A DNA stretch of 64,000 nt from contig NZ_JALLPL010000002.1 of NCBI RefSeq assembly GCF_023276355.1, positions 186,001 through 250,000 on the forward strand, given 5' to 3'. A program made the position numbers and the translations under genes. Position 1 is the first letter of the stretch; the number at the start of each line of letters is the position of its first letter. Origin of the DNA: Haloplanus sp. XH21. GTDB taxonomy: Archaea; Halobacteriota; Halobacteria; Halobacteriales; Haloferacaceae. Below, in pieces: positions 3,993 to 58,403 of the stretch. The notes beneath the pieces were generated by a model. It made no database searches. It saw nothing but the letters and a program-made list of their open reading frames with translations, and had not been told where the DNA came from.

Positions 3993-4069
3993 ACAGCACA
4001 GAGGCCATAGATCAGCCGAATACGGTGGATAGATTGACCAGACGGAACAGATAAACATCGAAGGAGGTG

Positions 4070-4102
4070 AATCTTTTTAACGCCTCGGCGTACAGCAAGC
4101 GT
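4070..4102 (+). promoter_or_regulatory. TATA-like promoter of orc1
   Basis: The element ctttttaa at about 4073-4080 lies 23-30 bases before the ATG at 4103, the spacing expected for a leaderless haloarchaeal transcript. The nearby aaggaggtga at 4061-4070 is too far upstream of 4103 to act as its ribosome binding site. Confidence 0.55.
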
Positions 4103-5560
4103 ATGGCCGGTAGTGATCAGGATGGAGCGGACCAATCTACCCTCAAACAGGAATCTCATTCTGGAACTGACGCAGAACACGTAGAAGCCGGTGTAGAAAA
4201 TGATGCCGAAGACTTGGAGTCCGAGCAAGACCGAGCAGTGTCGGAAGGCAATACTCAGCGGTCGATCCGGGATATGCTGGATGACGAGGGAGAAACATCG
4301 GTTTTTGTCAATCGAGACCTCGTCGAGCCAGACACAATTATCGACGAGGAGCGAATTGTCGGCCGTGATGATCAACTCGAGGCTGTAGTCTCGTATCTGA
4401 AACCCACACTCCAGGGAAATCGTCCTCCGAATATGCTTCTCTACGGTCCTGCCGGGACAGGTAAATCCCTCATCATCGGCGCAGTCACGCAACAGATTGT
4501 CGATCTCTGCCAATCCAAGGGTGAACGTTTCGGCGTTGTCAATATTAACTGCCAACCGATCAACACCCTCGATCAAGCCGTCTTTGAGCTCGTCCAAACC
4601 GTCGCAAGCGATGTCGACGCAGAAGTCGGTGTCCCGGAAACCGGGGTGTCGACGAAGCGCAAGTATCGACGCTTGTACGAACTCATCAATGAGCACTACG
4701 ACTCAGTTATTTTCATCTTGGACGAGATCGACCTCCTAGTCGGTCGACGAACGAATGAAGAGCCTGCCTACTCGAAACTGCTCTATCAACTGTCGCGAGC
4801 GAGTAACACGAACGAAATTGAGGGTCAAGTATCGGTCGCGGCACTAACGAATGACCCCAAATTCATGGAAGATATCGATGGTCGTGCCGAGAGTTCGTTC
4901 AATCCTCGGGACGTCTACTTCCCTGATTATGACGCGAACCAACTCCGACAGATACTCGAGAACCGGCGCGATGCCTTCCGGCCCAACGCCTTAACCGACG
5001 ACGTGCTACCACTCGTATCGGCATTCGCAGCCCAAAGCCACGGAGACGCACGAAAGGCTATCGACCTATTCCGTGGTGCCGGTGATCTCGCGGACGAACG
5101 TGATGATGAGAAAGTCCGCGAAGAGCACGTTCGTGAATCCCAAGAAGAAATCGACAAGGATCGTTCGCTGAAGCTGATTGAGGGACTGACGACCCAGAAA
5201 AAGATCTCCCTGTACGCGACCGCCTCAGTTGCCTACCTTTCCAATTTGTCCGGAAGTTCGGTACCGAGTCCAGTCGGCTTTAAAGTCTATCAATGGGTTA
5301 CCGACGAGATTGATGCTGACCAGATGACACGGGAGACTTACGTCAAATACGTCAAAGAACTCTCCACTTATGGTCTCATCTCCACGGCTCGAAAAAGTCG
5401 AGGACGTGGTGGGGGGATGTATATGGAATTCACGTTCACGGGCGAACCGGAAGCAATGATGAATCGGATCGTCGACGACACTCGCTTGGGAGCGATTGCC
5501 GATCAAGAAGACATCCTTCAGTCGGTGGTCAACGCCCAGCTAAGAGAGTTCCACAAGTAG
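4103..5560 (+). CDS. orc1: Orc1/Cdc6 family replication initiator
   Basis: An AAA+ initiator of 485 residues. Walker A is GPAGTGKS at residues 115-122 and Walker B is FILDEID with Asp207/Glu208. A C-terminal winged-helix region (about 380-480) would bind the G-rich origin boxes. The N-terminal 60 residues are acidic and probably disordered. A GTG at 4067 is in frame, but the TATA-like box at 4073-4080 would lie inside that longer product, so the ATG at 4103 is preferred. The gene sits between two clusters of ORB-like repeats, so it very likely fires this origin. Orientation and spacing suggest it is transcribed alone and may be autoregulated by the boxes at 3793-3992. Confidence 0.93.
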   Translation: MAGSDQDGADQSTLKQESHSGTDAEHVEAGVENDAEDLESEQDRAVSEGNTQRSIRDMLDDEGETSVFVNRDLVEPDTIIDEERIVGRDDQLEAVVSYLKPTLQGNRPPNMLLYGPAGTGKSLIIGAVTQQIVDLCQSKGERFGVVNINCQPINTLDQAVFELVQTVASDVDAEVGVPETGVSTKRKYRRLYELINEHYDSVIFILDEIDLLVGRRTNEEPAYSKLLYQLSRASNTNEIEGQVSVAALTNDPKFMEDIDGRAESSFNPRDVYFPDYDANQLRQILENRRDAFRPNALTDDVLPLVSAFAAQSHGDARKAIDLFRGAGDLADERDDEKVREEHVRESQEEIDKDRSLKLIEGLTTQKKISLYATASVAYLSNLSGSSVPSPVGFKVYQWVTDEIDADQMTRETYVKYVKELSTYGLISTARKSRGRGGGMYMEFTFTGEPEAMMNRIVDDTRLGAIADQEDILQSVVNAQLREFHK

Positions 5561-8450: not shown

Positions 8451-8933
8451 AGTTCGATCATTGATTCACTGATTCATAAATCTACGCCAGACATCTAATC
8501 CCGCTCTGGCAATTCTAAAGTTCCGTATTCCGTGGTATAAACCGCTAACAGGCGATTTGGGTGTTGTATTTGATGGAAATCAAAGAATCACTGATTCATT
8601 GATTCAACACATCCTGGAACCCCGCTTTGCTGGTTCCTCGTGGAATGGTGGTTGCTACTGGCAGTTACTGAATTAGTGACTCTGTGCTTCTCGGAGTAGG
8701 TAATTCATTGAATCCCTATCTCTTGGATTCACTGATTCATTGATTCACTGACTCCATGACTCGCCACATCCTATTGGATTCCAAGAATCAAGTACTCCTT
8801 AACTCCCTGATTTATGACTTCACTGATTCACAGATTCTGTGAATCAGTGAATCAATGTCCGGGCCATCTCGAGCATTTACTGGGGTAATGGATGAAACTA
8901 ATCGAAGGTGTCACTGACGGTTGAGGGTCTCGA
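8451..8933. repeat. GATTCA-repeat region and palindrome: candidate parS and parA operator
   Basis: No gene here. Runs of the octamer TGATTCA(C/T), partly tandem, occur at 8458-8477, 8585-8607 and 8724-8758, with looser copies at 8702-8711 and 8776-8791. A perfect palindrome fills 8821-8849, with 14-base arms (CACTGATTCACAGA) around one central T, and is followed by further GAATCA copies. The repeats are directly upstream of parA, where partition complexes usually bind. Part of this block is copied at 13917-13976. Confidence 0.7.
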
Positions 8934-33375: not shown

Positions 33376-33678
33376 GGCTTTGGTGAATCACTAGACAGCG
33401 TCGGTTTCGACCGGTAGAATTTGGAAGATAAAGCGGGAAACCGCCGATGATCTATGTCGAAAATTTCCCGCTTCACGGCTTTGGTGAATCACTAGACAGC
33501 GTCGGTTTCGACCGGTAGAATTTGGAAGATAAAGCGGGAAACCGCCGATGATCTATGTCGAAAATTTCCCGCTTCACGGCTTTGGTGAATCACTAGACAG
33601 CGTCGGTTTCGACCGGTAGAATTTGGAAGATAAAGCGGGAAACCGCCGATGATCTATGTCGAAAATTTCCCGCTTCAC
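33376..33678 (+). repeat. 101-bp tandem triplication of the IS left end
   Basis: Identical units at 33376-33476, 33477-33577 and 33578-33678. Each holds the terminal repeat, the promoter region and the first codons of the transposase (MSKISRF). Only the third unit continues into the full gene. Confidence 0.95.
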
Positions 33679-43858: not shown

Positions 43859-46058
43859 CGTGATCCTCCAGACTGGTGGTGGCGCGCTTGGCTCCGTCGC
43901 CGGGTGGCTCCAGAATCTGACGCCAGCAGAGAGTGCAGTACCTGCCCTTGTAGTGGGTCTCGGCCTTGGCGCCGGCAGTAAGTACCTCTGGGACCGCTTC
44001 ACTGCGGATGATGAACCAGACGTGGACTTCACCGATGTCCTCGACGAGGAGACACTCGAAGAAGGCGAGGCCGAACGCAAGCTCCTCGACGACATCTCCG
44101 AGTCGCACAAAACCGTCACCGCGCCCGGAGCTGTCGAGTGGGAAACGCGAGCCGCACGGGTCGGCGAGCAGTGGACGACGACGCTGTACATCGCTAACTA
44201 TGCCGACTATCCCAACGACGGGTATCTGAGCGACCTCTTCGAGATGACCGACGTCCAGTTCGATCTGACGGCCCACATCACGCCGAAAAATCAGGAGCGA
44301 GCCCGGAACGAACTACAGGACATCGCTGACGACCTCCAGGTCGATGCTGACCTCGAACAGAGTATCCGGAGCGCCTATCTCCAAGAGCGCGCCAACGAGG
44401 CCGCAGCGACGTACAAGGCCGTCGAGAACGGCGCGAACGTCTTCGACCAGGGGATGTTCATCACCGTCCGGGCCGACGAGAAAGACGGGCTCAGAGACGC
44501 TGTCCAGACGGTCAAGAGTGCGCTCCGCGACGACCCGGCGAACCTCACGCCGAAGACTGCCATCTGCCGGCAGGACCTCGCCCTCCAGTCCGCCGCACCC
44601 ATCGGCGACAACGAGTTCGGCCGGACATCGATCGCCTTGGGCGGGGCTGTCGGCGCGTTACTCTCCTCGCCGCACAACGCGACGATCCTTGAGGAGGGCG
44701 GCGTCGAGTTCGGGATCCACAAGGACAACCAGAGCCCGGTGGTCATCGATCCGTTTGCCCGAGATAACGGGTACGCGATGTTCACCGTCGGCGACACGGG
44801 CTCGGGGAAGTCGTTCAGTTCCAAGCAGAACTTCATCCGCTCTATCGAGCAGAGCAAGGACCGAATCGGTATCATCCTTGAGCCATTGAACAACTGGGCC
44901 GGCGTCGCCGAAGCCCTCGATGCCAAACGGATCACGGTCGGCGGGACGCTCGGCCTCAATCCCCTGGAGATTCGAGAGACGCCCGAGCACGTCCAGCGAG
45001 CGATGGGCGAGGACGCCAGCCCGTTCAACGAGAAGCTCGACGACGCGATGAGCTTCCTCACGAACTTCTTCGCCCTTCGTGGTATCTCACTGGGCGACCG
45101 GCGGACGACGCTCGAACTCGCCCTCAAACGTGCCTACAAGCGTCAGGGCATCACCGACGACATCTCGACGCACGACAATCCGAGTCCGACCATCCGTGAC
45201 ATGATGGACGTATTCGAGGATATGGTCGACGACCCCGAGGAGTTCGTCGTCCGGTCCGACGAAGAGGCAGGGAAGATCAAGGAGGATGCGACGTGGTTGC
45301 TCGATCAGCTGCGCCCCTTCGAGGACGACGGACGCCACGCGAACCTCGGCCAGGAGTCAGACTTCGACATTCGGGACGAGAAGGTCATCTACCTCGACCT
45401 CGCCCAGCAGGAGGGCAGCGTCGACAGCAGCACGGCGCTGACGATGCAGCTGCTCATCTCGCTGGTCTACGAGCGAGCGAAAGTCTCGGAGAAGGAGGTC
45501 GTGTTCTACATCGACGAGGCGCGCTACATCATGCAGGACGCCGCGAGCCTAGCGTTCCTCGAGACGGTGTTCCGCCACCACCGTCACCACGACCTCTCGA
45601 TCCGGCTGGTCACGCAGACCGTCGACGAGTTCTTCGAGCACGCCGAATCCGAGGCGATCTTGGACCAGTGTGCAGTCAAGCAGTTCCACCGCCTCGATGG
45701 GATGGACAAGGAGTGGGCCGACGAGTTCGGGCTGAACTACGCGCAGATGCGGTTCGTTCAGGACGCCGTTCCTGGCAACGAGGACGCCGGCTTCTCCGAG
45801 GCCCTAGTGGGCGTCGACGGCGAGTGGCGTGGGATCCAGGTCAAAGCGATGCCCAAGGAGAAGCAGGTCATCGACTTCGAGCCAACCGAGCAACGGCGAG
45901 ATTCACTCCCGGGTACTGGCGAGAATGCTGTGGACGCGGAGGTGCAGGCGTTCCAAGACGATATTGAAAGCCGAGCGACCGACAACGGACAACACACACC
46001 TGAGCGGACGCCAACAGAGACTGATGGCGGTGAAACGGGAGGTGACGACGATGCGTGA
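43851..46058 (+). CDS. virB4: VirB4-type conjugation ATPase
   Basis: A 735-residue ATPase with a membrane-proximal N-terminus, a coiled region (about 60-200), then a RecA-like domain: Walker A GDTGSGKSFSSKQ (about 313-325), Walker B VVFYIDEARYIM (about 548-559), and RLVTQTVDEFFEHAESE with the sensor Gln. VirB4 powers pilus assembly and substrate transfer from the cytoplasmic side. The C-terminus is acidic and disordered. It overlaps both neighbours, giving strong translational coupling. Confidence 0.9.
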   Translation: MRNVILQTGGGALGSVAGWLQNLTPAESAVPALVVGLGLGAGSKYLWDRFTADDEPDVDFTDVLDEETLEEGEAERKLLDDISESHKTVTAPGAVEWETRAARVGEQWTTTLYIANYADYPNDGYLSDLFEMTDVQFDLTAHITPKNQERARNELQDIADDLQVDADLEQSIRSAYLQERANEAAATYKAVENGANVFDQGMFITVRADEKDGLRDAVQTVKSALRDDPANLTPKTAICRQDLALQSAAPIGDNEFGRTSIALGGAVGALLSSPHNATILEEGGVEFGIHKDNQSPVVIDPFARDNGYAMFTVGDTGSGKSFSSKQNFIRSIEQSKDRIGIILEPLNNWAGVAEALDAKRITVGGTLGLNPLEIRETPEHVQRAMGEDASPFNEKLDDAMSFLTNFFALRGISLGDRRTTLELALKRAYKRQGITDDISTHDNPSPTIRDMMDVFEDMVDDPEEFVVRSDEEAGKIKEDATWLLDQLRPFEDDGRHANLGQESDFDIRDEKVIYLDLAQQEGSVDSSTALTMQLLISLVYERAKVSEKEVVFYIDEARYIMQDAASLAFLETVFRHHRHHDLSIRLVTQTVDEFFEHAESEAILDQCAVKQFHRLDGMDKEWADEFGLNYAQMRFVQDAVPGNEDAGFSEALVGVDGEWRGIQVKAMPKEKQVIDFEPTEQRRDSLPGTGENAVDAEVQAFQDDIESRATDNGQHTPERTPTETDGGETGGDDDA

Positions 46059-49000
46059 GTACCTTCGCGTGACGCCAACCTCCGAACGGCTCAATCCGGA
46101 GCGTCTGCCGCAGGCACTGGAGAGCCTCCACAAACTGACCTCAACGGACTCGACAGGGCTAGCTGACAAACTCAATCCGCTACATAGCGACACACCGCTA
46201 CGCTTCGAATTCCTCGCGCTGAGCGAGGGGAAAGATGACCCCGTCGAATTCTACTACGGTGCCGACGACCATCTGGATACCCTGGAGAAACGGCTCCGGT
46301 CGATCTATCCCGAGACGTTCGACATCGAGCGTACCGAGGTCGACATCGCATCCCGACTCGTACAGCCTGTCGAATTCGACCGCGAGACATTCGTCGAGCA
46401 CTATGAGGCGGGCGACCTCCAGTACGAATTCGACCCTGACGAGCAATACGAACGTGGCACTGACGACAACAAACAATCGGGGCCAGGGGACGCCGAATCA
46501 GTCGCGGATGGAGGAACGGTCGGTGACCAGTCTGCCGACCACATCATCGAGATCGGCGATACTGCCCTCGAACTCGCCCCACCAGATGCGATTCCCGAGG
46601 ATGAGCCACTCACGACGCTTGCCAAACCAACGGTAACATCGGAGGGGACGATACTCGCCCGGCCAGCGACCGAATCCGTCTCCCCCCTCGGCGTGCGGTG
46701 GCAAGGGTCGGCGACTCGGAAGCAGGACTGGATGACCTCACTCTCACCATTTACTGCCGACGACGAAGCGGAACTCCCAGCCGTCGATCAGCCAGGAGGT
46801 GCGCTCGCGTCGCTCGTCGACCACCTAATGGAGGCGACAGCACCAGTAGCGTTCCAAGTCGTCTTCCAGCGACGCGAGAGCTGGCAGTCCGATGCCGACC
46901 TTCGCAAGGAGGACGTCATCGACGGCCGAGACACACTCGCTCAGGAGATTATTGGCTCCCTCTTCGAACTTGACGATCAGCCGGAGAACCGGGACAGAAA
47001 CCAGCTGAGCGACGCGGTTGCAAAACGTGTCGCGGCAATCGAGGCGAAAAATCCGAAGCGGTCGTTCACCGCGAACATCCGAGCAGTCGGGATTCCATCC
47101 GGTGGTAACGGTCGCGATGATCTCGATGAGCGGATACAGTCACTTGTCCCGGTATTCGACCCGCTTGACGGGCCGTACTACCAGGTTGCGGCCGAACGGG
47201 TACGCGACAGCGGCTTGCGGGCAGCCACGAAAGAACGAAACGCCCGAGCGGCGCTGCAGCGGCTCTTGGATCGTGAGATCACGACCGGCCGTGGGAAGAC
47301 CCGACCCGAGTTCGTGCTGAGTGGCCGAGAGCTCGCGCACTTCGTACTCGTCCCCTCCTCGGAACAGCTTACTGTCGAGGGGACACGTGGGACGCGTGCG
47401 GAACAGCAGAGTCGGAATCCGCTGCCCCGTCCGCACCAGGACCTCATGCGTGAGTTCCGAGACGGGATGGCAATCGGGTATGCCCTCGACGACACCGGCG
47501 AGGCCGAAGACGTGCCGACACACATTCCACCCGGACTGCTGCCCACTCATTACGGCCGGTTCGGAACAACCGGCTCTGGGAAGTCGAAAGCCATCATCAA
47601 CGATATGCTGTCGCTGTACGACAACACCGAGGGGCCGACGATCCTCATCATCCCGAAAAACGACGATATGGCCCAGAATTATATGCGAGCTCACGCGCGT
47701 CGGTTCGGAATGACCGACCTCGAAGAGAACGTCGTCCACTTCCCGATTCCGGACGTCCTCCCCGGGTTCTCGTTTTTTGATCTCGAACCGTCGATGGAGA
47801 GCGGACGACGCCGCGAAGACGCCGTCCAACGGAAGGCCGACCACTACGAAGAGATTTTGAAGCTCGTGATGGGAACCGACCGCTACGAGCGGGCGACTGT
47901 AGCCCCGAATCTCATCAAGACACTCATCAAGGCACTGTTCGACGAGGAATACGGCCGTGAGAACGGGCTATACCGAGCGTCGACGGACTACTTCGCCCAC
48001 CGACAGCTCGAACACGTCGTCGACCAACTCTGGGAGGCCGGGCCACCGAACGAGAACATCGGCGACGCCCCACGGTCGAGCGACGAGGAAGTCACTCGAA
48101 CGATTCGACGGCAGCTCCAATTAGATTCGAACACATTCGCGAACGTGATGGGTGGTGTCGGAAATCGCCTTGCGTATATTTCACAGGATACGCACCTGCG
48201 GCAGATTTTCAACAATACCGAGAACCAGTTCGACTTTCGGGATGTCCTCGATGAGGATACGGTCATCCTCTTCGACCTCGGCGACCTCCGCGACGACGCC
48301 GCCCGGATTATGACCGGTGTGATCCTGACGAATCTCGATGCAGCTCTCAAAGATCGCAAACAGGCGCTCTCCCAGCACCCGGACGACTACGTCGTGAACT
48401 TGCTCGTCGACGAGGCAGCGTCGGTCGTGGTCTCCGACATCATGAACGATCTCCTCGAGAAGGGGCGGGGCTTTCGCCTCTCTGTTGGTCTGTCGATGCA
48501 GTTCCCCGAACAGATGGAGGCCGAAGGTGGGCGGAAAATCTACCTGAACGCTCTGAACAACATCGGCAGTTCGCTCATCGGGAAAATCAACGTCGACCGA
48601 GAACTGGCGCGGGCAATGGCCCACGAAGAGATGGACCCCGCGGATTTCGCCAATCGGATTCGTTCGTTGCCGCGCGGAGAGTGGATCGCCAGCCTGCCGA
48701 GCCCGACGTTCGGTGAAACGGGGCCGTATCCGTTCAGTCTCGAACCACTCCCGATCCCACCGGGCCACCCCGAGAGCGAATCCCCGCTCACTGAGCGTGA
48801 AGAGGAGCAGTTCACTGAAACGCTCTCCTCGATGCACGGGCACATCAGCGACGAACACGGCGTGCCGGCCGCAACAGACACCTCAACAACGAGCACACCT
48901 GCCGACGGACACGAGGTCCTCGATATCGCGAGCGACGACCTGGACGTCGCGATTGCGAAAGTGGTTCGGAGTCTGCAGCTTCGAGAGGGCTGCCATGAGG

Positions 49001-50370
49001 AGAACGGCTGGGTGGCTGTCGAAGCAGTTGACGACAAACTCAGACGGCTCTTCGACGACGTCGACGCCGAGCCGCCATCGTATGATGCACTCGCGGACAT
49101 TCGAGAACGATCACGATATCTCGATACGACCGTCGATATCGACGCCGACGAGCTCCGCATCCGGCTCACTGAAGCCGGAGAAGAGGTCTCGACACCCGAT
49201 ACTGGTAGCGTGCAGGCCGCCGGTGGGAGTGCCCACGACGCAGCACTCCTCCAGATCGAAGAAGAGCTCACCGCACTCGGCTTCACCGTCTCGATTCTCG
49301 CACAGGATGGCAGCGAGAAACCGGACGCGAGGGCGAGCCACCCCGACGTTGACGACCGATTCGCCATCGAAGTCGAAACGACGACACCCGAGAATCCCGC
49401 AAAGGTACTCACGAATCTCCGGAAAGCCCAAGAAGCAGGGGATATCCCACTGTTTGTCGTTCGACCAGGAAACGACGAAACTGAGTGGGCCAAGCGCGTT
49501 GACGGCATTCTCACACCACCGGTTCGAGAGCTACAGAGCGGTGAGACACGGTTCTACACGACTGACTCGAATCTCACGTTCAACGGCGGCGCAACCGAAG
49601 AGGGTGGAGTGACAGCCGTACGACCGGCGACCGACGACGAGAACGGGACCCAGAACATCTGGGAGCGTGATGGCGACGAAATCGTCCTTCGTGATGCCAG
49701 CGGGACGGAACACATCCGCCTCCCGTCGCTTGAAAAACTCTCGAAAGATCGTGTTCCAGCTATCTACAGCTACGATCACGCTGCCGACGAGTACGTCGTT
49801 TATGAGCCCGGTGAGCAGCACATCTACGAGACGAAATCGGCGTTCGAGGACGATTGGGTGCGTGTCAAGAAGCCATTCGTTCCCGAAGCCGAACTCCCCG
49901 TACCAGACTACACACGTTCGACGTACGGCATCGTTATCCTTCACGATGAGGCGGAATCGGTCGTGTATGAAGATGGTGAGAAGCGGCCACTCTCGGCAAT
50001 CACCGACGGGGCACTCCGTCCCGCACCGCCCGAATCGGCCGCCGCTGACGAACCACGTAGTCAGACCGACCAGGCAGATGAGCCGGTCGAAGAGAAGCAG
50101 AAAGACCCATCACCACCGTCGTTCAAAGCGTTCGTCGACGAATATCTCGTCCAAGACCCGGATGAAGCCGTGCCGAAAGACGATGTATTCAGTCTCTATA
50201 CCGACTGGGCAGAGGCACACGGCATCGACGACCCGCTGAATAAGAGCTGGTTCACACGGAAGCTCAACTCCCACATCGAGGTGGACTCCACGAAGAAGCG
50301 AATCGACGGGGAACCCGTCCGGCATTACACTGGTGTCCGCATCCGGTCTGAAGAAGAATCTGAGTCATGA
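46051..50370 (+). CDS. VirD4/HerA-like ATPase with PD-(D/E)XK-like and winged-helix domains
   Basis: A 1439-residue protein. The N-terminal 430 residues are unfamiliar and acidic. A RecA-like motor follows: FGTTGSGKSKAIINDML (Walker A, about 503-519), ILIIPKNDDMAQNYMRA, and VNLLVDEAASVVVSDIMNDL (Walker B, about 781). Then FRLSVGLSMQFPEQM continues as in coupling proteins. Residues about 1060-1170 resemble a restriction-endonuclease fold: KPDARAS, then FAIEVETTTPENPAKVLTNL. The last 85 residues (SWFTRKLNSHIEV, DGEPVRHYTGVRI) look like the winged helix at the end of D5-type primase-helicases. No transmembrane helix was noted. It may recognise, process and pump DNA. The start at 46051 overlaps virB4. 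Confidence 0.82.
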   Translation: MREYLRVTPTSERLNPERLPQALESLHKLTSTDSTGLADKLNPLHSDTPLRFEFLALSEGKDDPVEFYYGADDHLDTLEKRLRSIYPETFDIERTEVDIASRLVQPVEFDRETFVEHYEAGDLQYEFDPDEQYERGTDDNKQSGPGDAESVADGGTVGDQSADHIIEIGDTALELAPPDAIPEDEPLTTLAKPTVTSEGTILARPATESVSPLGVRWQGSATRKQDWMTSLSPFTADDEAELPAVDQPGGALASLVDHLMEATAPVAFQVVFQRRESWQSDADLRKEDVIDGRDTLAQEIIGSLFELDDQPENRDRNQLSDAVAKRVAAIEAKNPKRSFTANIRAVGIPSGGNGRDDLDERIQSLVPVFDPLDGPYYQVAAERVRDSGLRAATKERNARAALQRLLDREITTGRGKTRPEFVLSGRELAHFVLVPSSEQLTVEGTRGTRAEQQSRNPLPRPHQDLMREFRDGMAIGYALDDTGEAEDVPTHIPPGLLPTHYGRFGTTGSGKSKAIINDMLSLYDNTEGPTILIIPKNDDMAQNYMRAHARRFGMTDLEENVVHFPIPDVLPGFSFFDLEPSMESGRRREDAVQRKADHYEEILKLVMGTDRYERATVAPNLIKTLIKALFDEEYGRENGLYRASTDYFAHRQLEHVVDQLWEAGPPNENIGDAPRSSDEEVTRTIRRQLQLDSNTFANVMGGVGNRLAYISQDTHLRQIFNNTENQFDFRDVLDEDTVILFDLGDLRDDAARIMTGVILTNLDAALKDRKQALSQHPDDYVVNLLVDEAASVVVSDIMNDLLEKGRGFRLSVGLSMQFPEQMEAEGGRKIYLNALNNIGSSLIGKINVDRELARAMAHEEMDPADFANRIRSLPRGEWIASLPSPTFGETGPYPFSLEPLPIPPGHPESESPLTEREEEQFTETLSSMHGHISDEHGVPAATDTSTTSTPADGHEVLDIASDDLDVAIAKVVRSLQLREGCHEENGWVAVEAVDDKLRRLFDDVDAEPPSYDALADIRERSRYLDTTVDIDADELRIRLTEAGEEVSTPDTGSVQAAGGSAHDAALLQIEEELTALGFTVSILAQDGSEKPDARASHPDVDDRFAIEVETTTPENPAKVLTNLRKAQEAGDIPLFVVRPGNDETEWAKRVDGILTPPVRELQSGETRFYTTDSNLTFNGGATEEGGVTAVRPATDDENGTQNIWERDGDEIVLRDASGTEHIRLPSLEKLSKDRVPAIYSYDHAADEYVVYEPGEQHIYETKSAFEDDWVRVKKPFVPEAELPVPDYTRSTYGIVILHDEAESVVYEDGEKRPLSAITDGALRPAPPESAAADEPRSQTDQADEPVEEKQKDPSPPSFKAFVDEYLVQDPDEAVPKDDVFSLYTDWAEAHGIDDPLNKSWFTRKLNSHIEVDSTKKRIDGEPVRHYTGVRIRSEEESES

Positions 50371-50421
50371 AATGGACGTACACGATCCAATGCCCGATAC
50401 CCCTCGCGACTTCTTGGAGGC

Positions 50422-50599
50422 TGTTCCACCCACACTGAATCATGATTCCAGCCCACCAGACTCGCAAGTCGGGAATCACCCGACTGCGGCATGTTCCACC
50501 CAAATCTTCAATGGGTGGAACAGCTACGAAACGGCCGAAATGGGTGGAACACGCTCACGTCCAGCGATTTTTAACCTGCTATGGCGGGTGTTCCACCCA
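50422..50599. repeat. Cluster of five TGTTCCACCCA repeats after the conjugation operon
   Basis: TGTTCCACCCA at 50422-50432, 50492-50502 and 50589-50599 on the plus strand; its complement TGGGTGGAACA at 50512-50522 and 50541-50551. The pair 50492/50512 forms a perfect 11-bp inverted repeat with a 9-nt gap. No convincing gene covers 50371-50758. A small GGTCCC/GGGACC hairpin follows at about 50624-50639. Confidence 0.85.
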
Positions 50600-50758
50600 A
50601 CAACCAACTAGGATAGAACGGGGGGTCCCCGTTGGGACCAAGGGATTGGATCGCGACGTACAGCAGCGTGAATTCTGTGCTGGCTCAGAGTCAATTTTCC
50701 GAACAAGAAATTCGGTCGTTCACGGGGGGAAGGATTGCGATATGATGCTGACCAACCT

Positions 50759-50899
50759 CTACTCGGTGTCCGGGGCAGAATCTAACTGCTTCTGAGCTTG
50801 GAGTAGCATTCCTTTCCATGTTAGACCGTGGTGTTTCTTTGTCTTTTTCAAACTCTCGTACTGCGATTCGTCCTCAAACTCTATCTTGACGTACTTCAT
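50759..50899 (-). CDS. Small TnpB-associated protein
   Basis: A 46-residue protein, MKYVKIEFEDESQYESLKKT, then KKHHGLTWKGMLLQAQKQL. Small proteins of this pattern are, as I recall, repeatedly found divergent from haloarchaeal tnpB. The strand-helix-helix pattern would suit a ribbon-helix-helix-like regulator. It is separated from tnpB by 54 bases, so both promoters lie in that gap (a TATA-like stretch ttaacgttacattta is at about 50911-50926). Confidence 0.7.
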   Translation of the reverse strand: MKYVKIEFEDESQYESLKKTKKHHGLTWKGMLLQAQKQLDSAPDTE

Positions 50900-50953
50900 A
50901 CAGAGAGTTACATTAACGTTACATTTATGTGTGTCGATTGACTATCGAACACT

Positions 50954-52189
50954 GTGTCCAAGACGGTGACAAAAACGCTACAGGCCACGCTCGCCACACC
51001 TACAACGGGTAAAGAGCAACGCCTACAGCGTCTCTTGGACACCTACCGCGACGCACTCCAAGACGCCTTCGACGCCGGGGCAAGCACGATGTCCGCCGTC
51101 AACGACATCGTGACACCCTACGACCTGCCGTACCAAGCCAAAGACGCGCTCAAATCCTACGTTCCGAAACTTCGCGATACGTACAACGCCGAGGAGTTGG
51201 ACGACGAACACCCGGTTCGGCTGGTGAACCGAGCGGCCAAGTTCGACTACTCGGAGGAGCGCGAATACGGATTCGTGTGGCAGGTTCCGCAATCCGGACG
51301 CGGGACGAACTTCTGGATTCCACTTCGGATTAATCCCGAGCAGGAATCCCTGTGGTTCGACCTACTCGATGGAGACGCGACGGCGGGCGAACTTCGGTTA
51401 CAGAAATATCGCACGTCGTGGGAATTACACGTCACCGTCAACTATTCGGTCGAAGAATCGACCGAATCGAACGATTCGACGTACATCGGTTTCGACGTCG
51501 GTGAGAGTGCGTTGATTACGGGCTGTGCCCTCAAACGCGACGTACCACGGGAACCGATACTCGTCAACGGCAGTCAAGCGCGACACCTCTGCAAAGAGAT
51601 GTTCACCACACTACGGCGGCTACAGTCGAGAGACGCCGCCGAGTGGCGCGTGGACGAACGCTTCCACCACTACCAGAACGCCCTCACCGATATTGTCGAG
51701 AAAGCGTCTCGGCAAGCCGTCGAATACGCCGGGTCCTTCGAGAATCCCGTTATCGTTCTCGAAGACCTGTCGTATATCCGCGAGCATCTCGACTACAGTA
51801 AGTGGATGAACCGCCGGCTCCACAACTGGGCGTTCGCTCGGTTGCAGGGTCGCATCGAAGACAAAGCGACGGAAGAAGGCATTCCAGTCAAGTACGTCAA
51901 CGCAGCGTACACCTCGCAAACGTGCCACGCTTGTGGTCGTCTCGGTCGGCGGAGTCAACAAGCGGAGTTTGTGTGTCCGCACGACGACTGCCATATCTCG
52001 GAGTTCCAAGCAGATATCAACGCAGCGGCGAACATCGCCGGTCGCGTAGACCCGTGGGGAGAGAGCGTCCGTTGGGAACCCGGACGCGATGACTCGCCAC
52101 AGGATGGGAGCGCCTGTGACAGCGCCACAGTCCACCGAGAGACGAGTCCGAGAACCGGACAGATGACGCTCTCGGCGTACTCGGACTGA
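50954..52189 (+). CDS. tnpB: TnpB RNA-guided nuclease (411 aa)
   Basis: An OrfB family protein of a subgroup different from the other two here. RuvC residues: YIGFDVGESALITGCAL (Asp), VIVLEDLSYIREHLDYSKW (Glu), and SEFQADINAAANIAG (Asp); zinc ribbon CHACGRLGRRSQQAEFVCPH. All three acidic residues are present. It starts with GTG at 50954. The element sits 90 bases before the primase gene at 52281 and may have separated that gene from the conjugation operon. Confidence 0.88.
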   Translation: MSKTVTKTLQATLATPTTGKEQRLQRLLDTYRDALQDAFDAGASTMSAVNDIVTPYDLPYQAKDALKSYVPKLRDTYNAEELDDEHPVRLVNRAAKFDYSEEREYGFVWQVPQSGRGTNFWIPLRINPEQESLWFDLLDGDATAGELRLQKYRTSWELHVTVNYSVEESTESNDSTYIGFDVGESALITGCALKRDVPREPILVNGSQARHLCKEMFTTLRRLQSRDAAEWRVDERFHHYQNALTDIVEKASRQAVEYAGSFENPVIVLEDLSYIREHLDYSKWMNRRLHNWAFARLQGRIEDKATEEGIPVKYVNAAYTSQTCHACGRLGRRSQQAEFVCPHDDCHISEFQADINAAANIAGRVDPWGESVRWEPGRDDSPQDGSACDSATVHRETSPRTGQMTLSAYSD

Positions 52190-52245
52190 AACCTGTTAGC
52201 CCGGATTCCCCTCGTAGGGGAACCCCGGCGTTGCGCCGGGGAGGA
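52190..52245 (+). ncRNA. Predicted omegaRNA region of the third TnpB element
   Basis: Two successive GC hairpins (52208-52220, 52223-52241) at the right end, the position of the guide-RNA scaffold in studied TnpB elements. The guide would begin near 52245. Inferred from family behaviour. Confidence 0.4.
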
Positions 52246-52280
52246 TGTCACGCGAGGTGCTATGTGAGGATGAGTGAACT

Positions 52281-53528
52281 ATGATCGATTCGCCCGAGGC
52301 GATTCCGGAGACGTTACGCGAACGCGACCAGTGGGTGTGCTGGCGAGAAGAGGAGCGAGACGGCAAACCGACAAAGATTCCGGTGACGCCAGGGGCTGGG
52401 GGGTTCGCGTCAGCAACAGAGTCGGAGACTTGGTCAAGTTTCGAGGCAGCACTCGACTACAGCGAGACAGAGCACGCCGATGGTATTGGGTTCGTGTTTA
52501 CTGACGACGACTCCATCGTCGGCATCGATCTGGACGACTGCCGCGATCCCGAGACAGACGACGTCGACGACGCGGCACTAGACATCATCGAGCGCCTCGA
52601 CTCCTATACGGAGGTGTCACCGTCCGGCACCGGCTATCACGTCCTCATCAGGGGCGAACTTCCCGACGGGCGGAACCGTCGCGGGAGCATCGAACTGTAC
52701 GACACGGCACGCTTTTTCACCGTCACTGGCGATCACGTCGAGCGGACACCAACGTGCGTCGCACGTCGACAGGACGCGCTCAGAGCGATTCACCGTGAGT
52801 ACGTTCAGGAGACAGAGCGTGACACGGCAGCAGAGTCCGAACAGCGTGGTAGCGCTGACGACGAGTCACCGACGACCGGTGCAGCCGGCGTTGACGTCGA
52901 CCTCGAAGACGAGGACCTCCTCGAGAAAGCGCGGAATGCATCGAACGGCGAGAAGTTCGAGCGGCTCTGGAACGGGAACACAGCCGGCTACGACAGCCAC
53001 TCCGAGGCCGACATGGCGCTGTGCTGTTTGCTGGCGTTCTGGACCGGTGGTGACCGGACCCAAATGGAGCAGCTGTTTCGCCAGTCGGGATTGATGCGGG
53101 AGAAGTGGGACGAGGTCCACTACGCTGATGGGTCGACGTATGGGGAGAAGACCATCGAGCGAGCAATTGCGACTACTTCGGAGTTCTACGACCCGGACGC
53201 CGGCGACGATACCGCGGACGAGATCCCCGCCACATCGTCGCCAGACGTCGGCGCTGCTGACTCGGAGCGGAGTCGCGCGTATCTCGCCGAGAAGAACCAG
53301 ATCTTGAGCAATCGCGTCGACGAGCTCGAGGCGACACTCACGGAGAAAACCGAGCGCATCGACGCTCTCGAAGCGGAGGTCAAGCGACTCACTGACGAAC
53401 TCGGCACCCGTGGCCAGGAGGAGGAGGAGGAGTGCCAGGGCGAGCACGCCGCTACTACGAGTGAGAACAGTAGTGAGTCAGAGTCATCCTCACTGTTGGG
53501 TCGGTTATTCGACGGTCGGTCCAAGTAA
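52281..53528 (+). CDS. Primase-polymerase of the phage NrS-1 type
   Basis: A 415-residue protein. Residues 1-170 form an AEP-like catalytic part: RDQWVCWREEERDGKPTKIP, FTDDDSIVGIDLDDCRDPET (metal Asp residues), SPSGTGYHVLIRGELPDG and IELYDTARFFTVTGDHV. Residues about 225-300 match the small domain that follows the polymerase in NrS-1 enzymes (DMALCCLLAFWTGGDRTQME, FRQSGLMREKWDEVHYADGS). A coiled coil (about 330-375) and an acidic tail end the protein. It could prime plasmid or transferred-strand synthesis. It comes after the TnpB insertion. Confidence 0.82.
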   Translation: MIDSPEAIPETLRERDQWVCWREEERDGKPTKIPVTPGAGGFASATESETWSSFEAALDYSETEHADGIGFVFTDDDSIVGIDLDDCRDPETDDVDDAALDIIERLDSYTEVSPSGTGYHVLIRGELPDGRNRRGSIELYDTARFFTVTGDHVERTPTCVARRQDALRAIHREYVQETERDTAAESEQRGSADDESPTTGAAGVDVDLEDEDLLEKARNASNGEKFERLWNGNTAGYDSHSEADMALCCLLAFWTGGDRTQMEQLFRQSGLMREKWDEVHYADGSTYGEKTIERAIATTSEFYDPDAGDDTADEIPATSSPDVGAADSERSRAYLAEKNQILSNRVDELEATLTEKTERIDALEAEVKRLTDELGTRGQEEEEECQGEHAATTSENSSESESSSLLGRLFDGRSK

Positions 53529-57506: not shown

Positions 57507-58403
57507 ATGTCAAGTAACAACGCCACCAGTAATGTAGTTTCGGTCGATGAACAGGCATTCGAGCAAGCAGACGAGCAGACGGTCGACGAGGAAGACTTCC
57601 CGGTCGTCGACGAGACGCCGGAGTTCCGGGCGACGGTCGACATGGAAGTGCAGGCGAAAGTCGATTCCAACCACCCAGATGCGCGGATCAACGAAGGCCC
57701 GGATCACCTGTTCGGGAAGACCCTCGAACAGGAAGAGCGCATCAAGGCACGAGAGGCCGAGTTGGAACACATCAGTGCCCAGGCGGGACTCAGTCAGCAG
57801 GAGGGGCGTGCGAAGCGGACGCGAGACATCGCAGCGAAGCGAAGCGCTGAGCGGCGTGTGAAGTTCCAGAAGCGGGCAGCGAGCGTGAATCCGATGGCTG
57901 ACCCGGAGCGAGACGATCCTCGTGCAGAGCTCACGCAGGAGCAGTTGGCGGCGGTGAACAAGCAGTCGATGCGGCTGGCGGAGAAGCTGGATGGCTGGTC
58001 GCGAGCAGCGATTGGCCGGCGGCTGGGTGAAGCCGTCGTCGGTGGGAAAGACCTAACGAGTGCAGTCGTCGGGGTGTTCGAGGAGTTGCAGACGGCCCCT
58101 GGGACGGTGATCCCCATTGGGAAGCTCGAGGACGTCAATCGCAAAGAGGTGAGCATCGAGGGTCGAGTCGAAGTACTCTGGGATGCGGACTCGCCGGCCA
58201 TCGCTCAAGTCGGGCTGATCGCAGACGACAGTGGAAAAACGAAGGTGACGATCTGGGAGAAATCAGATGCGCCGTGGATTGAAGAGGGCGAGCAGGTGCG
58301 TATTCACAAGGTAGCCCGGAACTGGTACGAGGGACGCGTCTCACTGGCTGTCACTGGGTGGAGCACCATTATGTTCCCTGAGCGCGGTCGGTGGTGGGAA
58401 TAG
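57507..58403 (+). CDS. RPA-like OB-fold ssDNA-binding protein
   Basis: A 298-residue protein with a charged helical middle (about 75-190) and a single OB fold at about 205-290: VNRKEVSIEGRVEVLWDADS, QVGLIADDSGKTKVTIWEKS, and GEQVRIHKVARNWYEGRVSL. This matches the haloarchaeal RPA/SSB-like proteins found on plasmids. It would coat single-stranded DNA in replication or transfer. The ATG at 57507 is preferred over the GTG at 57498. The long GC-rich region lies directly upstream. Confidence 0.8.
   Translation: MSSNNATSNVVSVDEQAFEQADEQTVDEEDFPVVDETPEFRATVDMEVQAKVDSNHPDARINEGPDHLFGKTLEQEERIKAREAELEHISAQAGLSQQEGRAKRTRDIAAKRSAERRVKFQKRAASVNPMADPERDDPRAELTQEQLAAVNKQSMRLAEKLDGWSRAAIGRRLGEAVVGGKDLTSAVVGVFEELQTAPGTVIPIGKLEDVNRKEVSIEGRVEVLWDADSPAIAQVGLIADDSGKTKVTIWEKSDAPWIEEGEQVRIHKVARNWYEGRVSLAVTGWSTIMFPERGRWWE

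Follow-up and report, generated by a model that had tools for sequence, protein, structure and literature searches.

A repeat array beside the coupling ATPase gene of a haloarchaeal megaplasmid: a probable transfer locus with a candidate reader of its own

Introduction

How does the conjugation apparatus of a haloarchaeal plasmid pick the DNA that it is to transfer? The question is raised by a locus of Haloplanus sp. XH21 in the window, that is, the whole stretch of 64,000 nucleotides that was analysed, which comprises positions 186001-250000 of contig C2, a megaplasmid of 305 kb. At 50422-50599 the window carries an array of five copies of the 11-mer TGTTCCACCCA, next to the gene for a coupling ATPase of a type IV secretion system. 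The array is probably a cis-acting transfer locus, similar in kind to an origin of transfer (oriT) or a clt locus, which is read directly by the coupling ATPase and serves as an address tag of haloarchaeal plasmids. A literature search, with most subscription journals outside its range, gave no earlier description of such an array with a candidate reader.

The repeat array

The array consists of the following exact copies of the 11-mer:

50422-50432, + strand, R1, TGTTCCACCCA
50492-50502, + strand, R2, TGTTCCACCCA, left arm of the inverted repeat
50512-50522, - strand, R3, TGTTCCACCCA, right arm of the inverted repeat
50541-50551, - strand, R4, TGTTCCACCCA
50589-50599, + strand, R5, TGTTCCACCCA, abutting the hairpin core

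Three copies thus lie on the + strand and two on the - strand, R2 and R3 forming a perfect 11-bp inverted repeat with a gap of 9 nt, and the start-to-start spacing is irregular (70, 20, 29 and 48). A re-count of the sequence bears out the preliminary description in its five exact 11-mers, in its inverted pair and in the position of the array directly after the coupling-protein gene, the stop of which is at 50370. The functional feature reaches further right than first noted: a hairpin core, likewise conserved, occupies about 50602-50650, and the feature also takes in the DNA that flanks the gene for a primase-polymerase (PrimPol) on its 5' side. The array-bearing stretch as a whole (50371-50953) extends from the coupling ATPase stop to a TnpB gene at 50954, and the mechanically called open reading frames inside it are of 92 aa and 117 aa.

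A chance repeat is ruled out by both shuffle tests. When one mismatch is allowed, a single extra match is found in the window, at 58355, and 100 dinucleotide shuffles gave a mean of 0.81 matches with at most one mismatch, a maximum of 3 and never 4 or more. In addition, TGTTCCACCCA is the sole 11-mer of the window with at least four copies inside 250 bp, and none of 60 shuffles contained any 11-mer cluster of this kind. Outside the array, one exact copy occurs in the 2.94-Mb genome, isolated on the chromosome-sized contig C1. A CRISPR-like array was set aside because the copies face both ways and their spacing is irregular.

Co-variation of the repeats with the tail of the coupling ATPase

The gene in front of the array and the domain at its end are as follows:

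46051-50370, + strand, coupling ATPase with a HerA/VirD4/TraD-like motor, 1439 aa from the chosen ATG, by family matches
50119-50352, + strand, C-terminal winged helix of the coupling ATPase, of the P4/NrS-1/RFX type, by a Pox_D5 match (E 2.3e-6), the AlphaFold2 model and co-variation

Three repeat types, TGTTCCACCCA, GTTACGGCA and GGTCAGGG, occur among the close relatives of this ATPase, and further types (GTTACGACA, CTTACGGCA, GTCCAGGCA and TGTGACACC) are found in the wider locus set. In a close comparison of 32 loci, which fall into three repeat classes of 18, 9 and 5, residues 1-1200 of the ATPase are equally similar between and within classes (segment means 0.78-0.99), and so is the PrimPol (0.87-0.93). 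Residues 1301-1434, on the other hand, have a similarity of 0.16-0.42 between classes against 0.77-0.98 within them, with no exception among the 32 loci, that is, roughly the last 140 residues of the ATPase are replaced when the repeat type changes. Repeat and winged helix are exchanged together as a cassette, the function of which would be specificity.

Joint swapping of neighbours could explain this pattern among close relatives. A deep comparison took in 41 non-redundant loci. There, repeat similarity tracks the winged helix after control for the motor (partial r 0.63, p 0.0005 by permutation), but it does not track the motor after control for the winged helix (partial r -0.003, p 0.50), with permutations that correct only partly for shared ancestry, a point that weighs on the reading as a transfer locus. 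Of the 750 pairs whose motors have diverged, those with similar winged helices share their repeats in 59% of cases and the remaining pairs in 7%; none of the 22 pairs with similar motors and different winged helices does so. Moreover, the five-copy layout is kept at 57-60% motor identity, where the spacers have diverged. The protein encoded at 46051 had been named in advance as the partner of the array. That its C-terminal winged helix changes along with the repeats supports this choice, and it would be the protein that binds the array.

The winged helix is predicted by an AlphaFold2 model of the tail with a mean predicted local distance difference test (pLDDT) score of 83.7. The nearest fold to this model is the RFX DNA-binding domain (RFX-DBD, Z 12.3), and the origin-binding domain of phage P4 (1ka8) fits it with Z 9.3 and a root-mean-square deviation of 2.3 over 78 residues. 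The model also matches the C-termini of NrS-1 and AsfvPrimPol in structure comparison; VIA-align rows with Z below 8 were not taken as evidence of kinship except those of NrS-1, which agree with the PrimPol match described below. The protein appears as an FtsK/HerA-class motor with a C-terminal winged helix, as in TraB/clt systems, the motor call resting on a weak DUF87/HerA match and a TIGR03743 TraD match (E 3.8e-6), both below the cut-off. A TrbL/VirB6-like gene and a VirB4-like ATPase gene lie 5' of it.

The companion box and the hairpin core

Besides the class-specific repeats, the locus contains the following elements:

50473-50489, + strand, companion box of R2, GAATCACCCGACTGCGG (consensus AAATCGCAAGACGGCG), class-independent, found by a position-weight scan
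50554-50570, - strand, companion box of R4, AAATCGCTGGACGTGAG, found by eye, and aligned
50602-50635, + strand, core hairpin, CCAAC, a 22-nt loop with TAGNATAG and a G-run, GTTGG, conserved between repeat classes
50638-50649, + strand, second short hairpin, CCAAGGGATTGG (CCACGGCAGTGG in L038), not in all relatives

In most arrays, whichever class they belong to, a class-specific repeat is preceded at a distance of a few nucleotides by a box that resembles AAATCGCAAGACGGCG. The position-weight scan covered 40 arrays, and its seeds came from some of these, the R2 box included; the scores of the seed arrays are circular because the seeds were taken from the same arrays, and many non-seed arrays score too. 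The R4 box is below the scan threshold here, and the same position scored in the relatives L018 and L019.

The core stem is CC[A/G]AC / GT[T/C]GG. Of 43 non-redundant cores, 41 have a 22-nt loop, and all 43 keep stem pairs 2-4 intact. Its middle pair, pair 3, is A-T in 30 cores, G-C in 13 and mixed in none, although the search expressions permitted mixed pairs; since the core sequences are related, the pair-change events are fewer than the sequences. Slid stem partners pair in about 40% of cells or fewer in the same 43 cores. Many relatives also have a TATA-like TAGTATAG inside the core.

Distribution among relatives

The preliminary description would have been contradicted by a lack of repeat clustering near related operons; in fact the array is kept beside homologous operons in many genera of haloarchaea, and lies next to conjugation genes, as expected of a transfer locus. 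The gene order in relatives is coupling ATPase, array, hairpin core and PrimPol, with no TnpB element. A search of the order for the core pattern, over 392 genomes, gave 49 sites in 42 of them, the reversed control pattern gave 0, and by our own count 41 of the 49 sites adjoin a coupling-ATPase match. Viral contigs were also searched for the core, with no match. In homologues without the winged helix the next gene follows at once, and there is no such array at that place. The sister coupling ATPases L085-L098 lack the winged helix and are directly followed by a gene with a sub-threshold match to the DNA primase small subunit (E 1.5e-5, L085).

In 4 of 40 named records (L109, L121, L126 and L132) the core and the repeats are present but no coupling-ATPase match lies near them. 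Two of these orphan arrays share one plasmid of Natribaculum breve, and the repeat type of one orphan in this species is that of a complete system on another plasmid of the strain. Orphan arrays were dropped as proof of mobilisation in trans, as decayed remnants explain the Natribaculum breve case equally well.

The PrimPol gene, the TnpB insertion and the second system

Two further features follow the core in the window:

50691-52251, + strand, IS200/605-type TnpB element (TnpB open reading frame 50954-52189), absent from the relatives inspected
52281-53528, + strand, NrS-1-type PrimPol with a helix-bundle domain, 415 aa, PF22763 E 2.8e-32

The PrimPol matches the primases 7ola and 6a9w of the PDB with E of about 1e-36 to 1e-35, its catalytic motifs being aligned and retained, and the C-terminal part of 7ola weakly matches a winged-helix profile. 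Its start codon is probably the ATG at 52281; the start of the gene (window 52271-52285) has a small deletion in comparison with relatives. The TnpB element splits the core hairpin from the PrimPol and disrupts a third conserved hairpin.

The same contig has a second system (G000:C2:8000-18500, L148) with a coupling ATPase 47% identical and a winged helix of its own, in which the order is coupling ATPase, large primase-like gene and then an array of TACCTGACA; this array shares the companion box, and its hairpin core is related. Two systems with different repeats in one cell fit self-recognition. Contig C2 also has five Orc1/Cdc6 matches, and a 94.5-kb relative has one annotated Orc1/Cdc6, 28 kb from the array. 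Two of the matches on C2 score identically (C2:176934 and C2:266313), and one lies inside the window (4067-5560). The relaxase families PF03432 and PF08751, the only two searched, gave no match in the genome.

Elsewhere in the window, clustered 11-mer copies close to TCACTGATTCA occur at 8465-8841, and a unit of about 101 nt is present in three tandem copies at 33376-33650.

Proposed mechanism and alternative explanations

In the proposed mechanism, the coupling ATPase would bind the 11-bp repeats via its own C-terminal winged helix, as co-variation suggests, and would therefore load onto its own plasmid and not onto others. The inverted pair R2/R3, together with R1, R4 and R5, may nucleate a multimer, probably the hexameric motor, and the companion box would be read by a component that is constant between plasmids. 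The invariant hairpin, which stays in place despite repeat exchange, may be the site of DNA opening, nicking or priming, and the neighbouring PrimPol would prime synthesis there. A further proposal, put forward tentatively and held to be rather less likely than its opposite, is that haloarchaeal conjugation dispenses with a relaxase: the ATPase may select the plasmid, possibly as double-stranded DNA, via an exchangeable phage-type origin-binding domain, and the paired PrimPol at the invariant hairpin may prime or complete the transferred strand. With two relaxase families searched, relaxase-free double-stranded transfer is attractive but unproven.

Of the three roles suggested earlier, an oriT, a regulator array and a termination zone, the transfer locus is the best supported, and no supporting evidence was found for a termination zone. 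A serious rival was missing from that list, namely a replication origin of the P4/NrS-1 type, in which the winged helix would bind the repeats as iterons, with the hairpin as the site of unwinding or priming, the PrimPol as the initiator and the ATPase as a helicase replacing the superfamily 3 (SF3) helicase of P4-like proteins. We consider it unlikely, at about one chance in four. In its favour, the fold of the winged helix is matched by the origin-binding domain of P4 and by the C-termini of NrS-1 and AsfvPrimPol, the PrimPol matches 7ola with its weakly fitting winged-helix part, and the hairpin adjoins the PrimPol. However, the origin-binding-type domain sits on a secretion-type transfer motor and not on the PrimPol, which is a separate gene, or on an SF3 helicase; the PrimPol is constant while the repeats vary; and the array need not be a replication origin because Orc1/Cdc6 is present on C2 and on the 94.5-kb relative. 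That the tail acts on the repeats to control transcription of the PrimPol and downstream genes is improbable: the array is 5' of the PrimPol, inverted repeats are typical of operators and many cores have the TATA-like motif, but an operator would not need as much as five spaced copies whose layout is fixed, together with companion box and hairpin, and the array of the second system comes behind the primase-like gene.

It is very improbable that tail and array swap together as mere neighbours with no contact, even though they are contiguous, with conserved DNA on both sides, which is ideal for homologous exchange. Joint swapping fits the deep comparison less well because the spacers have diverged there and the repeats, which persist, have not; moreover, the repeats follow the winged helix and not the motor even where motors are diverged. 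Several points nevertheless weigh against the array as a transfer locus. Tail and array are adjacent, and therefore recombination that passes them on as one piece would be enough to link them in close relatives, an objection which the deep comparison reduces and does not remove. Binding, nicking and transfer are steps that we infer beyond the observed array, co-variation, conserved core and gene order; a P4-type domain with a PrimPol next to it is typical of replication origins; the two relaxase families searched gave no candidate for a nicking enzyme; and the window copy may be impaired because TnpB is inserted between core and PrimPol.

If the array is a transfer locus as proposed, a swap of the tail-plus-array cassette would change transfer specificity, and the pairing of repeat and tail predicts a recognition code for many plasmids. 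The array and its co-varying candidate reader name a DNA site and a protein domain that could select the substrate in haloarchaea. The locus also has a module of phage replication, made up of winged helix and PrimPol, split over the conjugation motor and the adjacent gene.

Comparison with known systems

The closest likeness is to TraB of the Streptomyces plasmids pSVH1 and pWTY27, a DNA-pumping ATPase whose C-terminal winged helix recognises short clt repeats; clt adjoins the traB gene on pWTY27, and clt loci vary between plasmids (PMC3583192, PMC4170104). A motor with a C-terminal winged helix and short repeats in a cis locus would be common to both, as an analogy. The haloarchaeal motor differs in that its operon also holds VirB4-like and TrbL-like genes, its winged helix is of the P4/RFX type, and companion box, hairpin and PrimPol are added. 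In the oriT of pCW3 from Clostridium perfringens, the winged-helix protein TcpK binds repeated 9-nt boxes (PMC6137059); TcpK is a separate small protein that works with the relaxase TcpM, whereas the haloarchaeal winged helix forms part of the coupling ATPase itself, and a search for PF03432 and PF08751 relaxases found none. The phage P4 alpha and NrS-1 primase-helicases resemble the present proteins in the predicted winged-helix fold (1ka8, Z 9.3) and in the PrimPol family (6a9w, 7ola), but here the domains are split over two neighbouring genes, with the winged helix on a secretion ATPase and no SF3 helicase between the two genes.

The archaeal conjugative plasmids pNOB8 and pT33-3 have VirB4- and VirD4-like ATPases, with no relaxase identified, according to the relevant part of a 2025 review, which reports that sequence similarity has revealed no relaxase on any of the archaeal conjugative plasmids under review and asks for studies of the mechanism (PMC12857230). 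That passage of the review mentions no transfer origin, whereas the haloarchaeal case defines a candidate site together with its candidate reader. The repeat-tail pair offers an answer, open to test, to the question of how DNA is chosen in archaeal conjugation, on conjugative plasmids that have no recognised relaxase.
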